64,000 nt of DNA from Oscillospiraceae bacterium (GTDB lineage Bacteria; Bacillota; Clostridia; Oscillospirales; UBA929), in assembly GCA_031265355.1 (NCBI GenBank), contig JAISCT010000047.1, forward strand, positions 124,001 through 188,000, given 5' to 3'. Shown here piece after piece: positions 1-52,441 of the stretch. Numbering within the stretch: position 1 is the first letter of the stretch; each line of letters begins with the position of its first letter. Below the pieces are notes generated by a model that ran no database searches, was not told where the DNA came from, and worked only from the letters and a program-made list of their open reading frames with translations. Both the position numbers and the translations under genes were made by a program.

Positions 1-1690
1 TTTCAAAACTTTTGGACGCCGCCGCCCATTCTATGTCGCCTCTGGGCGATGAGTTGTTCTCGGTCACGTCGCCCACGTGCGACGCGCCGAAGATGTTGTA
101 CTTGGCCCTATGGGCGCCGATCCATTCGAACATGGTGCTCATGATCAGAGACCCGCCGTCGGCGCCCCTCTTGTACTGCACGTAGTACTGCGTGTCGGGA
201 ATGAACACGAAGTTGTAGTTCTCAGGCTTGCTCAAGAAACTGACGTCACCGTTGTGGCCCAGTTGATCCGTATACACCGCATCAGGGACAAGACCCTCAT
301 TGTTTGGAATCAGCAGAAAGCTGTCCGGCCTGAAGCCTTTGGTCAGGCGGATTTCCTGAATCTCGCCTCTGAACTGCGGCGCGCCCAAGCTGCCGGCTGC
401 CTCCAACGCCAGGAATTCCTCCTGCGTGAGCAGGTTGCTCGTCGTTTGGTTCCAGTTTGCCCCATTAAAGTATGTCCCTTTCAAATAACCGTAATTGGCT
501 CCTACCGCCCACCCCAAACCATCCAGCTTATCGATGCCGGGCTGCGGACGGTTGTGGTTATCGCTCCTCAACACAGGCAAACCATCGATATAGAGCACGG
601 TGGTGTCGCCGTCGTTCCTGATCACGGCATAATGCAGCCTATCCCGTGTGACGCCGTAAGGATCGCTCCAAAAACAGGATTGGTAATTGTTGTTCAAGAT
701 TCTGGGGTCATGCGTTTTTACATGGGTGTTGTTGAACGTAAGCTGCAGATCCCCGGTCACACCGGCGTTCGTGTAATCGTTGCTTCCGCCGGTGTTGAAC
801 GAACCTTGGCTTGAGCCGTCCAGCTCGTTGTGCCAGTCCGTCCTGATATCATACGCCGAATTGGGCGTGCCGCGCTTTCCGAGCATGGCGGCCCATTGGC
901 CGGAATCCCGCGCCGAAAAGATGATCTCGAAGGTGTAGCCTTCCATGAATTCCTCGTCATCCAGCTCGCCGGAGGCGGTTACGAAGTATGCGCCCTGGTT
1001 AGACATCGGCGAGAACTTCAAACTTCGCGGACTTGTGCCAAGCGGTCCGCCGCCGCCTCGTAAAACATTGTCACCGAACGAAAGTGAATCGCCCGCGTTT
1101 TGCCCGGCGGCGATTTTTTGGCTCATCAGCAACAGGTCGTTGCCGCGCCCCGTCCTGTCTGAAATCTTCAAGCTGCTGTCCGCCAACGACCCGGACGTAT
1201 ACCCTTCTTCGTCGCTAAAGACCCAATGCGCCAGCGCCTCGTATTTCGCCGCGCCCAGCGTAAGCGTCTCCGCGCCGCAGAGCGGCGTCAAGACGGTTTC
1301 GTCCCAGGCAAAGGCCCTGACGATTTCGGCCTCTTCCGCCGCTGTGTGCCGCCAGACGGCGCCGCTTTCGAGCGCGGTGAGCGGGGCCGTCTCACTGTCC
1401 AACAGCCGGCCTTCGCCGTCATAACAGGCAAGCAGCAGTACGCCGCTCATCTCTTCCGTGTGCGCACCCGATACGGCCACCTCCCGGCGCTCCGGCACAT
1501 ACGCCAGCGAGAGGGCCACTCTCGCACCGCCGTCTCGCCTGTCCGGCGTGGTAAAGCTGTCTGCCGGCTCGGTCTCGCCATTTTCCACGGCATTTCTCTG
1601 CCATCCGTTCGCCGCAGCGCCGGGCATGAGAGAGAGCAGCACAACACCCGCCAGCAACCATGCCGTCCATGACTGTACTCGTTCGTTCAT
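1..1690 (-). CDS. Secreted LamG-domain calcineurin-like phosphoesterase (3' end outside window)
   Basis: The frame is open from an ATG at 1690 to the window edge (563 codons, C terminus missing). The SD GAGGAGG lies just upstream. Residues 1-28 form a signal peptide (short charged start, hydrophobic AWLLAGVVLLSLMPGAAA). A concanavalin-A/LamG-type sandwich covers roughly residues 150-470 (RDSGQWAAMLGKRGTPNSAY, then the end motif EIQEIRLTKGFRPD). A metallophosphoesterase domain starts near residue 495 with FVFIPDTQYY and continues with the metal-binding HVGDVTENN near residue 540, where the window ends. The likely role is an extracellular phosphohydrolase bound to glycan or surface material; the substrate is unknown. 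A fragment resembling its LamG end lies at 2836-2905. The family call is fairly sure, the function is not. Confidence 0.8.
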   Translation of the reverse strand, partial: MNERVQSWTAWLLAGVVLLSLMPGAAANGWQRNAVENGETEPADSFTTPDRRDGGARVALSLAYVPERREVAVSGAHTEEMSGVLLLACYDGEGRLLDSETAPLTALESGAVWRHTAAEEAEIVRAFAWDETVLTPLCGAETLTLGAAKYEALAHWVFSDEEGYTSGSLADSSLKISDRTGRGNDLLLMSQKIAAGQNAGDSLSFGDNVLRGGGGPLGTSPRSLKFSPMSNQGAYFVTASGELDDEEFMEGYTFEIIFSARDSGQWAAMLGKRGTPNSAYDIRTDWHNELDGSSQGSFNTGGSNDYTNAGVTGDLQLTFNNTHVKTHDPRILNNNYQSCFWSDPYGVTRDRLHYAVIRNDGDTTVLYIDGLPVLRSDNHNRPQPGIDKLDGLGWAVGANYGYLKGTYFNGANWNQTTSNLLTQEEFLALEAAGSLGAPQFRGEIQEIRLTKGFRPDSFLLIPNNEGLVPDAVYTDQLGHNGDVSFLSKPENYNFVFIPDTQYYVQYKRGADGGSLIMSTMFEWIGAHRAKYNIFGASHVGDVTENNSSPRGDIEWAAASKSFE

Positions 1691-20465: not shown

Positions 20466-20511
20466 AAAGGGCCGGTTCCGTTTCGCTTGGGCGAAACGGA
20501 ACCGGCCCTTT
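20466..20511. terminator. Strong terminator, left member of a duplicated pair
   Basis: A 20-bp perfect stem (AAAGGGCCGGTTCCGTTTCG and its complement), 6-nt loop, T run after it. It ends the gene at 19415-20443. It is nearly identical to 27379-27424, and the shared block runs on into the bases beyond the hairpin. Confidence 0.88.
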
Positions 20512-27378: not shown

Positions 27379-27424
27379 AAAGGGCCGGTTCCGCTTCGCC
27401 CGGACGAAGCGGAACCGGCCCTTT
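27379..27424. terminator. Bidirectional terminator between MalT-like copy 2 and htpG
   Basis: 20-bp perfect stem, 6-nt loop CCCGGA, T run on the right and A run on the left. It serves both convergent genes. Compared with 20466-20511 the stem differs at one base pair by a compensatory change (T-A to C-G). Confidence 0.88.
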
Positions 27425-32270: not shown

Positions 32271-32627
32271 AACTGGGCGGACCGTTATGGAGCTGTATCC
32301 AAAACCGGATTGGGTTTGGCCATTCACTATGCGCTCTCGCAACGCAAATATCTGGAGCATTTTTTGCTCGACGGTCGGCTCGAAATCTCGAATAATCGTG
32401 CCGAGCGCAGCATCAAGCCGTTTGTGATAAGCCAGAAGAATTTTCTCTTCGCAAACACCCCACGCGGAGCAAAAGCCTCCGCAGTTATGTTCAGCCTCAT
32501 CGAAACCGCGAAAGAAAATCGTCTGAATCCATATGAATACCTGACTTACATCTTCAAAAATGCTCCAGGTTGGAATATCCGTAACGACATCAATGCGCTG
32601 CAACTCCTTTTGCCTAACTCGGCATAG
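32271..32627 (+). mobile_element. IS66-family transposase remnant (C-terminal end)
   Basis: Open without a start from about 32271. It reads LGLAIHYALSQRKYLEHFLL, DGRLEISNNRAERSIKP and FLFANTPRGAKASA, the conserved C-terminal part of IS66 TnpC. The first 75 percent of the transposase and both IS ends are missing, so it is dead. It shows past insertion after pyrC, at the edge of an AT-rich patch. Confidence 0.85.
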
Positions 32628-32861: not shown

Positions 32862-33554
32862 ATGATTGAGATAATTCGTTCGGTTCATATGTTGGAAATA
32901 CTGAAAGCATATTCATGGAAAACAATCCATCTTGATAATCCTCGGGAGATTGTTGCAAAGGGCGACATGGCGAATTCTGTTCAGGATATTGTTGTCCAAA
33001 TCTGTTTAACATATATGTTTGTGATGGGTTCTAATATGGCTCATGTCATCGTGCCAGAAACGATTCTTGATGTATCCATCGATCACTTATCCTGTTTTTT
33101 CAAATTCGTTATGGTAATCGGCGCCAGGGATCATTGCAAATTGCTACAAGTGTCTCATATCAGAGATATGACGCACGAAGTGTACGACGATGCCATAAAA
33201 AGAAAGAAAATACACCCGCTCTTCATCAACAAGAGCGGGTGCAACTGGCAGCTGTCCATTCGCAATACGCATGCGTCGACAGATGTGTATGTTGTGTATC
33301 AGCCTGCAAATACAAATAGAATGAATGCGCCCAACAGGGAGGATCCGTTGCTGCAGTATGTCTTGAGCATGCCCACATCTGAGCTGGTTGGTTTTCCGAT
33401 CTATCTTTTAGAAAATGAAATTGATACCTGTGAACTGCTTTACGCTTGCGCCGCTCGCGGATTTCGTGTATTTCTCAATGGTCGTATGGGAGATGATATG
33501 CGTTTTATGAGCCATTCGGTGACTATTCTTCCAAAACCCGGACTTAACGGATAA
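32862..33554 (+). CDS. Protein of unknown function
   Basis: 230 residues, preceded by a good SD (AAGGAAGG) so it is probably real. Base use is much more AT-rich than the neighbours, which suggests recent transfer. No membrane segment or signal peptide. One stretch, ICLTYMFVMGSNMAHVIVPE, is hydrophobic but too short and mixed for a clear helix. No family is recognised. A perfect 11-bp hairpin lies inside the gene at 33213-33241. Neighbours are an IS66 scrap and uvrA, which do not hint at a role. Confidence 0.6.
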   Translation: MIEIIRSVHMLEILKAYSWKTIHLDNPREIVAKGDMANSVQDIVVQICLTYMFVMGSNMAHVIVPETILDVSIDHLSCFFKFVMVIGARDHCKLLQVSHIRDMTHEVYDDAIKRKKIHPLFINKSGCNWQLSIRNTHASTDVYVVYQPANTNRMNAPNREDPLLQYVLSMPTSELVGFPIYLLENEIDTCELLYACAARGFRVFLNGRMGDDMRFMSHSVTILPKPGLNG

Positions 33555-33708: not shown

Positions 33709-33737
33709 TTGACGGAACATTTGTTCCGCTTTATAAT
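33709..33737 (+). promoter_or_regulatory. Promoter of uvrA
   Basis: TTGACG (33709-33714), 17 bp, TATAAT (33732-33737), close to the sigma-A consensus. The LexA box fills the spacer. Predicted start near 33744. Confidence 0.85.
33713..33728. promoter_or_regulatory. LexA (SOS) box
   Basis: CGGAACATTTGTTCCG, a perfect 6-bp dyad containing the Firmicute LexA core GAAC-N4-GTTC, placed between the -35 and -10 of uvrA. LexA bound here would block RNA polymerase until DNA damage. Confidence 0.88.
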
Positions 33738-33755
33738 GGTTGAGAGGTCGGACAG

Positions 33756-33798
33756 AACCCTGCCGCGCGGCCGGATCGCGCGGCAGGGTTTTTGATTT
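33756..33798 (+). terminator. Intrinsic terminator inside the uvrA leader
   Basis: A 14-bp perfect GC stem (AACCCTGCCGCGCG and complement), 7-nt loop, then TTTTTGATTTTTT. It begins only about 12 nt after the predicted start of the SOS promoter and 100 nt before the uvrA start codon. Confidence 0.85.
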
Positions 33799-33820
33799 TT
33801 TCAGGGGATGCGCTCAATCC

Positions 33821-33853
33821 CGCCGAAACTGTAAATATTTTACAGTTTCGGCG
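33821..33853. promoter_or_regulatory. Perfect 15-bp inverted repeat in the uvrA leader
   Basis: CGCCGAAACTGTAAA, TAT, then the exact complement. There is no T run, so it is not a terminator. It could be an operator or an RNA hairpin; no known box was recognised. It ends 45 nt before the uvrA ATG. Confidence 0.6.
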
Positions 33854-33898
33854 CCCGGCCTGTCGGGAGGCGCGGCGCCCCGGGGAAGGGACAACCGT

Positions 33899-36757
33899 AT
33901 GCGCAACAGCATCTTTGTCAAAGGCGCGCGCGAACACAATTTGAAAAACATCGACATCGAGATCCCGCGGGACAAGCTTGTCGTGCTGACCGGGCTGTCC
34001 GGCTCCGGCAAGTCGTCTCTCGCGTTCGACACCATCTACGCCGAGGGGCAGCGCCGCTACATCGAGTCCCTCTCCTCCTATGCCCGTCAGTTTCTGGGTC
34101 AGATGGAAAAGCCGGACGTGGACTACATCGAGGGTCTCTCGCCGGCCATCTCCATCGACCAGAAAACCACCTCCAAAAACCCGCGTTCTACGGTGGGAAC
34201 CGTCACGGAGATCTATGACTATCTGCGCTTGCTCTGGGCGCGCATCGGCGTGCCGCACTGCCCCCGCTGCGGGAAGGTGATCCGCCAGCAGAGCATCGAC
34301 CAGATCATCGACCAGCTGCTGGCGCTGCCGGAGGGCACGCGCCTGCAGGTCCTGGCTCCCGTGGTGCGGGCGCGGAAAGGCGAGTACCAAAAGGTCTTCG
34401 AGGACGCCCGCCGATCCGGGTATGCGCGTGTGCGGGTGGACGGGCAGCTCTACAACTTGAGCGAGGAAATCCGACCGGAAAAAAACAAAAAACACACGAT
34501 TGAGATCGTCGTCGACCGGCTGGTCGTGCGCGACGGCGTGCGTCCACGGCTCACCGACTCGGTGGAGACCGCGGCGGCGCTCGCCGGAGGGCTCGTCGTG
34601 GCCCACCTGCCCGAGGTGATCGGCGCGGACGGTGCGGAGACGACCCCCGAACAGTCGCTGCTGTTTTCTCAAAACTATGCCTGCGAGGACTGCGGCGTCT
34701 CGATCGAGGAGCTCACGCCGCGCATGTTCTCCTTCAACAATCCCTACGGCGCCTGCCCCACCTGTACGGGTCTGGGGGAACAGCGCAAAGTGGACCCGGA
34801 CCGGATTTTGCCGAACCGCGCGCTCTCACTGGCGCAGGGCGCCGTAAAGGCCTCCGGCTGGAGCGGCGCCGAGGAGGGCACCATCGCCCACATGTACTAC
34901 TCGGCGCTCGGCCGCGCCTATGGTTTCACACTGAACACGCCGCTGCAAAAATTCTCTCCCGAGGCGATGGACGCGCTGCTCTACGGCACCAAAGGGACAA
35001 AACTGGAGATCCGCTACCGCACGGAGCGCGGCGCGGGTCTCATGCAGCAGGTCTTTGAGGGCCTTGTGAACAATTTGGAGCGCCGCTACCGGGAAACGCA
35101 GAGCGACTGGGCCCGCCAGGAGATTGAGGACTGCATGTCGTCCGTCCCCTGCCCAGACTGTCACGGACGCCGGCTGAAGAAAGAGAGTCTCGCCGTCACG
35201 GTGGGCGGACTGTCCATCGCCGATTACACCCGCCGCACCGTCACCGAGGCGCTGGCCTTCTGGGACACGCTGGCGCTGACGGAGAAGGAGACCATGATCG
35301 CCGAACGCATTTTGAAAGAGATCCGGGAACGCCTCGGCTTCCTGATCAGCGTGGGGCTCCAGTATCTGACGCTGTCTCGGCACGCCGGCACGCTGTCCGG
35401 CGGCGAGAGCCAGCGCATCCGGCTGGCCACGCAGATCGGATCGTCGCTGATGGGCGTGCTTTACATCCTGGACGAGCCGTCCATCGGGCTGCACCAGCGG
35501 GACAACGACAAACTGCTGGGCACGCTGCGGCGCCTGCGCGACCTGGGCAACACTCTCCTGGTCGTCGAACACGACGAGGACACGATGTACGCCGCCGACC
35601 ACATCATCGACGTGGGTCCGGGCGCCGGCGTCCACGGCGGGCACATCATCTGCGCCGGCACGGCAGACGACATCCGCGCCTGTGAAAACTCCATCACCGG
35701 GCAGTACCTGGCCGGGAAGCGCAGCATCCCGGTGCCGGCGCAGCGCCGCCGGGGCTCCGGGCGCACGCTGACTGTCCGGGGCGCGGCGGAAAACAATCTG
35801 CAGCATATCGACGTCGACATCCCCCTCGGCACCTTCACCTGTGTGACGGGGGTGTCCGGTTCCGGCAAGTCGTCGCTGGTCAACCAGATTTTGTACCGGC
35901 GGCTGGCCGCCGACTTGAACGGCGCGCGGATCCGCGCGGGCGCGCACGACGCCATCGAGGGGAAGGAATATCTCGACAAGGTCATCGACATCGACCAGTC
36001 CCCCATCGGGCGCACGCCCCGCTCCAACCCGGCCACCTACACCGGCGTATTCGGCGACATCCGCACGCTGTTCGCTTCCACCGCCGACGCCAAGGTGCGC
36101 GGTTACGGTCCCGGCCGCTTTTCGTTCAACACCCGCGGCGGGCGCTGCGAGTCCTGCGCGGGCGACGGGCTGGTGAAGATCGAGATGCACTTTCTGCCGG
36201 ACATCTATGTCCCCTGCGACGTCTGCAAGGGCCGCCGCTACAACCGGGAGACACTGGAGGTGCATTACAAGGGCAAAAACATCTTCGATGTGCTCGAACT
36301 CACCTGCGAGGAGGCGCTGGCCTTCTTCGAAAACGTGCCCAAGATCGCCCGCAAGCTGCGGACGCTGAACGAGGTGGGCCTCGGCTACCTCCGGCTGGGG
36401 CAGCCCTCGACCACGCTGTCGGGCGGCGAGGCGCAGCGCGTCAAACTGGCCAGCGAGCTGACCCGGCGCTCGACCGGCAGCACGATTTATATCTTGGACG
36501 AACCGACGACAGGGCTGCACATCGCCGACGTGCACCGGTTGATCGAGGTGCTGGACCGCCTGGTGGAGGGCGGCAACACGGTGGTCGTCATCGAGCACAA
36601 TCTGGAGGTCATCAAGACGGCCGACCACATCATCGACCTCGGGCCCGAAGGCGGCGACGGGGGCGGTCGGATTGTCGCCGCCGGCACCCCGGAACAGATC
36701 GCCGCCCACGCGTCGTCCTACACCGGTCAATACTTGCGGGCCAAACTGAACCTGTGA
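33899..36757 (+). CDS. uvrA: UvrABC excinuclease subunit A
   Basis: 952 residues, the usual length. DNA-damage recognition ATPase of nucleotide excision repair. Two ABC ATPase units: Walker [15 protein letters not shown] and [14 protein letters not shown]; signatures LSGGESQRI and LSGGEAQRV; Walker B ILDEPS and ILDEPT. Zinc fingers CPRCG...CEDC region and CESCAGDG...CDVCKG. The ATG at 33899 follows GGGGAAGGG; the open frame to 33740 runs through the terminator and is not coding. SOS control by LexA is likely. uvrB and uvrC are not in the window. Confidence 0.97.
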
Positions 36758-52405: not shown

Positions 52406-52441
52406 GATTTTAACCTCCACATTTATGTGGAGGTTAAAATC
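52406..52441. repeat. Perfect 17-bp palindrome
   Basis: GATTTTAACCTCCACAT, two bases, then its exact complement. There is no T run and no gene starts nearby, so a terminator is unlikely. Possible operator, recombination site or end of a lost small element. Confidence 0.6.

Follow-up and report, generated by a model that had tools for sequence, protein, structure and literature searches.

What does a strong intrinsic terminator do when it stands directly behind a LexA-box promoter and in front of uvrA? This arrangement was noticed in an Oscillospiraceae bacterium (contig JAISCT010000047.1), in a stretch of 64 kb that we call the window. From its letters an initial annotation had proposed that a LexA box fills the promoter spacer, that the transcript meets a terminator about 12 nt from its start and later a perfect dyad, and that uvrA may therefore need both release of LexA and escape from termination. 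We analysed the anatomy of this leader (Table 1), its conservation and the ways in which it may work.

Table 1. Features of the uvrA leader and of its second copy in a related species (window positions, except in the last row)
Feature	Position	Strand	Basis or remark
Sigma-A-type promoter, TTGACG-17 nt-TATAAT	33709-33737	+	11/12 consensus matches; near-consensus
LexA (SOS) box CGGAACATTTGTTCCG, perfect 16-bp palindrome within the promoter spacer	33713-33728	.	sequence
Initial transcribed sequence, expected start near 33744 (predicted)	33738-33753	+	14/16 columns invariant
Hairpin 1, stem of promoter-proximal intrinsic terminator (predicted)	33754-33792	+	fold, conservation
Terminator T-rich tract TTTTTGATTTTTT	33788-33805	+	9/11 columns invariant at 33789-33799
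Second perfect dyad (dyad 2), 15-bp arms, 3-nt loop TAT, core TGTAAATATTTTACA at 33830-33844	33821-33853	.	
Shine-Dalgarno sequence GAAGGGA (probable)	33885-33891	+	sequence
uvrA	33899-36757	+	matches NCBIfam NF001503 and TIGR00630 far beyond their cut-offs
Second leader copy, L009 (G002:C149, 6905-10085)	1501-1681		nuclease-like YhcG/DUF1016 gene at 392-1417, minus strand

Promoter, LexA box and terminator

The LexA box does lie where it had been placed, inside the TTGACG-17-TATAAT spacer. Its core (GAACN4GTTC) reads GAACATTTGTTC, at 33715-33726, within the 16-bp palindrome, and a box of this kind overlapping the promoter is the mark of Gram-positive-type LexA promoters (consensus as cited in PMC4234289). 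The core alone is at chance level, with 29 sites genome-wide against 33 for the reversed control pattern; what distinguishes this box is its place within the promoter together with its full palindrome. The complete pattern (TTGACNGAACN4GTTCN{4,6}TATAAT) has a match in 9 of 245 genomes of the order, and its reversed control in none. In four genomes of another genus of the order (g70; L155-L158) a box-in-spacer promoter stands directly 5' of a Y-family polymerase gene, whose identity comes from a Pfam IMS match in the one genome of the four that was tested. The recurrence of the same design before such a gene in four genomes indicates that this class of box is real, and supports its identity as an SOS box. 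A viral origin of the promoter was considered and dropped, with 0 exact matches in viral_contigs.

Another perfect box-in-spacer promoter, in genome G050 (L154, 1501-1529), has a hairpin of -20 kcal/mol soon after its start. No frame of more than 80 aa starts in the next ~270 nt and the unit has no tRNA, tmRNA or Rfam match, which makes it a candidate SOS-driven non-coding transcript.

The genome of the window (G000) carries an intact lexA gene (PF01726; TIGR00498 at 167.3 bits against a cut-off of 110.95). A box with one mismatch (GAACN4GTTT) is found upstream of lexA in this genome and in two other species of the genus, G003 and G004, and the same form is listed for lexA of C. difficile (PMC4234289). 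Upstream of recA, no exact or one-mismatch box was found in the loci fetched; at the recA locus of G000 the single site with one mismatch or better sits downstream of the gene.

Hairpin 1 begins about 12 nt past the expected start near 33744. It is made of 14 perfect Watson-Crick pairs (33756-33790), and the stretch from 33754 to 33792 folds with -32.0 kcal/mol. Among the 83 terminator-like sites of the window (both strands, -12 kcal/mol or lower) it ranks at the top, the runner-up reaching -24.1 kcal/mol. A G+C-rich stem with a U-run directly after it, the classical form of an intrinsic terminator, is kept in all five leaders compared below, and the RNA 3' end is expected in the T-rich tract near 33794-33800. 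As anatomy, the early strong terminator is thus as first described, although a small correction applies further downstream: uvrA starts at the ATG at 33899.

The whole leader RNA is also unusually stable (z = -5.06; 0 of 200 shuffles equally stable). In the consensus fold, the initial sequence GAGGUCGGA is predicted to pair with the U-run UUUUUGAUU, so that the predicted 56-mer RNA would shut into one closed hairpin of -35.3 kcal/mol, almost fully paired and with its 5' end bound to its own U-tail. According to this model, pairing with the U-run may explain part of the invariance of the initial sequence, in which 14 of 16 columns are invariant among four leaders and likewise among five.

Conservation and genomic setting of the leader

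A DNA search found the leader in three more species of the same genus as G000, namely G002, G003 and G004; G001 and G005, of this genus too, are without it, as are 12 other genomes of the family (14 family genomes in all), and a match in G052 is merely a 26-base stretch of the stem. Comparison of leaders in relatives had been suggested as a check: all four leader-bearing species have retained the promoter with its box, the initial sequence, and the hairpin with its T-run, and so has a second leader copy in G002. The two leaders of that species are 2.9 kb apart and 89.9% identical over 179 columns. One stands before uvrA; the other precedes a gene whose product has YhcG_C and DUF1016_N domains. 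The two copies are separated by an HTH gene and a further ORF. Since the duplicated stretch holds the promoter, the box, the terminator and dyad 2, the nuclease-like gene may share the same control, as far as can be read from sequence.

To describe conservation we divided the leader into blocks, which were chosen after the alignment had been seen; the four-way counts omit the extra G002 copy, and five-way counts were computed alongside. The promoter (33709-33737) has 27 of 29 columns invariant across the four uvrA leaders, and the same holds with the fifth copy added. For hairpin 1 the count is 27 of 35, and for three leader spacers it is 6/18, 8/21 and 9/28. Hairpin and T-run together (36/46) are more conserved than these neighbouring spacers (23/67; Fisher P = 4e-6), and so is the core of dyad 2 (11/15, P = 0.008), the arms of which have 6 of 18 columns invariant. 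We also used the fourfold-degenerate sites of uvrA as a reference (234/329 invariant). Against these sites the promoter block alone is significantly more conserved (P = 0.004); no significant excess was found for the hairpin (P = 0.28), the T-run (P = 0.34) or the dyad core (P = 0.55). The argument for purifying selection on the terminator therefore comes from the post hoc comparison with leader spacers.

Pairing is well preserved. In the five leaders 96.7% of the cells of hairpin 1 are paired, and changes in its stem mostly keep the pair (C-G to U-G, G-C to G-U); for the whole leader structure the value is 92.8%, against 40 to 48% when the structure is slid along the alignment. In a sample of close species (four, plus one extra copy) such conservation is supportive, not proof. 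The z-scores of the full-leader folds are -5.06, -3.72, -4.88 and -3.98, and only -1.11 in G004. A closing stem joining the 5' end to the sequence after dyad 2, suggested by the single-sequence fold of G000, was rejected: its shuffled-partner control gave 2 of 300 in G000 and a marginal 22 in G002b, and failed in the remaining three (104, 177 and 160).

We then asked how particular this architecture is among 98 uvrA leaders, made up of 80 named records (the best 80 of 586) and 18 family genomes, the window's own leader included. A perfect box within 300 nt was present in 8 of them and a terminator-like site in 21. The order perfect box, terminator, uvrA ATG was confined to the four leaders of this clade, i.e. 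half of the eight with a perfect box. With one box mismatch allowed, 18 of the 98 have a box and five of these show the order box-terminator-uvrA; the additional one, L108, has its one-mismatch box 297 nt and its hairpin 72 nt before uvrA.

The genomic setting differs too. uvrA and uvrB are separated in all four leader-bearing species (in G000 uvrB lies on the same contig, 46 kb from uvrA and 12.7 kb to the left of the window start), and no box with at most one mismatch was found in the stretch searched upstream of uvrB in any of the four. In several other genomes of the family (e.g. L117, L118, L120, L122 and L126) uvrB, judged by eye, ends directly 5' of uvrA. In this clade of closely related, gut-type Clostridia uvrA is thus separate from uvrB and has its own LexA promoter and terminator. 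Between pyrC and the leader, the window contains a C-terminal remnant of an IS66 transposase (32310-32627) and a 230-aa frame (32862-33554) that matches nothing in Pfam or NCBIfam. Since pyrC is directly next to the leader in G003, this spot takes up insertions.

The second dyad

The 15-bp perfect dyad before the Shine-Dalgarno sequence was reproduced with exactly the coordinates first given for it. Perfect dyads, defined by arms of at least 11 and a loop of 2-12, are scarce: the window has 11 distinct ones, two of them in the uvrA leader, and five mononucleotide shuffles of it have 0, 0, 2, 1 and 0. Dyad 2 has no U-run after its 3' arm, and in G004, one of the four species, its arms are broken and one core base is different. 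The idea that this second hairpin is a second terminator does not hold on this evidence.

The core motif TGTAAAN3TTTACA is nearly unique in these genomes. It occurs twice in G000 (in the leader and inside polA), twice in G002 (in both leaders), once in G003 (in the leader), three times in G004 (never at the leader) and not at all in G001 or G005, and its reversed control is absent from all six. Such rarity points to a cis element or to nothing, rather than to the operator of a regulon; this last possibility was examined through the three core sites of G004, which showed no shared theme, and is unlikely. The polA site (L027 1501-1515; G000:C17:40303-40317), the sole other one of its genome, falls inside the start of this repair gene, probably by chance.

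In dyad 2 90.3% of cells are paired, and it is the only helix changed on both sides, at three pairs. We do not take this as compensatory evolution of an RNA, since 101 of 500 shuffles reach the same number of two-sided changes. Leaders differ in the centre of the dyad, which reads either TAT or ATA, and template-switch correction of the palindrome could equally account for both the symmetric changes and this flip.

Other dyads of the window deserve mention. Two long perfect ones, nearly identical (AAAGGGCCGGTTCCG...CGGAACCGGCCCTTT; 20466-20511 and 27379-27424, with arms of 21 and 20 bp), are candidates for a repeated palindromic element or for bidirectional terminators. A third, at 52406-52441, is a perfect 17-bp dyad with a 2-nt loop and A+T-rich ends.

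How the leader may work

The explanation that we favour, with a probability of about 0.58, combines LexA repression with a constitutively active terminator close to the promoter, which would reduce uvrA expression and yield a short folded RNA. LexA would bind in the spacer and shut the single strong promoter of uvrA. Upon DNA damage LexA would be removed and RNA polymerase would start near 33744, to meet after some 50-57 nt a strong intrinsic terminator that is presumably always on. Most complexes would stop there, setting free a fully folded RNA of ~50-57 nt, and a minority fraction would read through into uvrA. The terminator would hence be a fixed attenuator, lowering the basal leak and capping the induced level. 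This explanation is supported by the anatomy of the leader, by a lexA gene in the genome, by conservation among relatives and by the lack of any obvious antiterminator or leader peptide. As a counterpoint, a terminator this strong could leave a needed gene almost unexpressed, in which case one would have to assume a missed promoter or an antitermination factor.

The same point lends some appeal to regulated antitermination, in which damage or a factor (a processive antiterminator, or the state of the polymerase during repair) would raise read-through and uvrA would need two signals: so strong a terminator right behind a strong promoter fits a needed gene poorly unless it is lifted, and the nearly invariant initial sequence (14/16) is what the entry site of a factor might look like. 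Yet promoter function and pairing with the U-run explain this invariance at least in part, and the leader offers little to work with. The RNA upstream of the hairpin is just ~10-11 nt long, and its best pairing with the 5' arm is worth -7.1 kcal/mol, compared to -33.5 for the true partner of that arm; the only better competitor (-21.3 kcal/mol) is still weaker than the terminator, lies downstream of the stop point and would be made too late. We consider this distinctly unlikely. A bolder version, which we hold as little more than a long shot, takes the 190-bp unit of LexA promoter, initial sequence, terminator and dyad 2 as a portable SOS leader cassette served by a putative antitermination factor of its own, for which the initial sequence would be the target, so that uvrA, and the YhcG-type nuclease gene in one species, would depend on loss of LexA plus a second signal. 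Switchable attenuators of the riboswitch, T-box or leader-peptide type were examined and set aside as unlikely, there being no room for an upstream antiterminator that could form first and no known family or conserved peptide. Indeed, no Rfam family reached its gathering score for the leader in the sources searched, the weak match to rnk_pseudo (22.2 bits vs 55, E 0.37) being at chance level. The search for a conserved leader peptide was equally negative: the frames starting after 33744 begin at a TTG (33792) and at an 8-codon ATG (33808), and the aligned relatives lack the latter ATG. Of the original claim that uvrA needs both LexA release and escape from termination, the LexA box and the early terminator thus stand as conserved anatomy, seen at the level of sequence, but regulation of the escape loses ground, with too little RNA upstream and no conserved peptide.

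Hairpin 1 could instead serve mainly as a 5' stabiliser, or to give the full-length uvrA mRNA a structured leader, with termination playing a minor part. This is unlikely: a hairpin near the 5' end and a full leader that is unusually structured in four of the five leaders folded are in agreement with it, but a stabiliser could do without a U-run, and here the T-run is conserved (9/11 columns). The short RNA might also be the main product, a small RNA of ~50-57 nt induced by SOS, with uvrA expressed through incidental read-through or from another promoter. A short promoter-to-terminator unit is indeed kept in five of five leaders. However, the unit stays before uvrA in all four species, its sole extra copy is again a leader (of the YhcG-type gene), and no alternative + strand promoter was found, with no promoter-like site of that strand listed between hairpin 1 and uvrA. 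Moreover, the 56-mer is predicted to close on itself, the U-tail holding its 5' end, so that no seed stays free; judging from this predicted fold, action in trans is disfavoured. We judge the small-RNA reading very unlikely, and the SOS-induced RNA of about 55 nt that had been offered as an alternative finds its place as a by-product of the same terminator model, more probably than as a trans-acting regulator. Finally, the hairpin might terminate transcription arriving from the pyrC side and be downstream of the uvrA promoter by chance. In G003 pyrC is just upstream and in the same direction, but the hairpin is located past the promoter and must also act on the uvrA transcript, and in G002 it is kept although the adjacent gene on the 5' side of the uvrA copy faces away. 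This origin seems extremely improbable.

If the terminator works as predicted, the SOS output of uvrA would be the product of two factors, the occupancy by LexA and a constant share of read-through. In this simple way a gene that is perhaps wanted at a low level could have a strong, fast-induced promoter. The split of uvrA and uvrB, with a LexA box only on uvrA in this clade, offers a clean comparison with relatives that keep both genes together.

Among known systems, the Y-family polymerase promoters of g70 share the box-in-spacer design (TTGACAGAACN4GTTCN6TATAAT), but there the coding sequence follows ~22 nt after the -10 element with no intervening terminator, which shows that SOS promoters of this kind do not generally include one. 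In Clostridioides difficile, as described in PMC4234289, the uvrBA operon has a GAACN4GTTC box at -30 of uvrB, with LexA binding measured by SPR. The likeness is a box of this type on clostridial UvrAB genes; the difference is that the C. difficile uvrB box serves an operon, whereas here uvrB has no box with up to one mismatch in the stretch searched upstream of it, and uvrA, standing alone behind pyrC-side DNA, has its own box and terminator. Among open-licence papers we found none on a uvrA leader with LexA plus an attenuator. The principle, however, is not new, to judge by the title of Easton and Kushner 1983 (cited in PMC7835731), which places E. coli uvrD under LexA and attenuation. Going by this title, both cases have a repair gene under LexA and attenuation; uvrD, too, would have a LexA box and a terminator between promoter and gene. 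The two differ in the gene, the phylum and the type of box. The leader described here is a clade-specific uvrA case, with the terminator very near the start, and a new instance of this known principle of LexA combined with attenuation.
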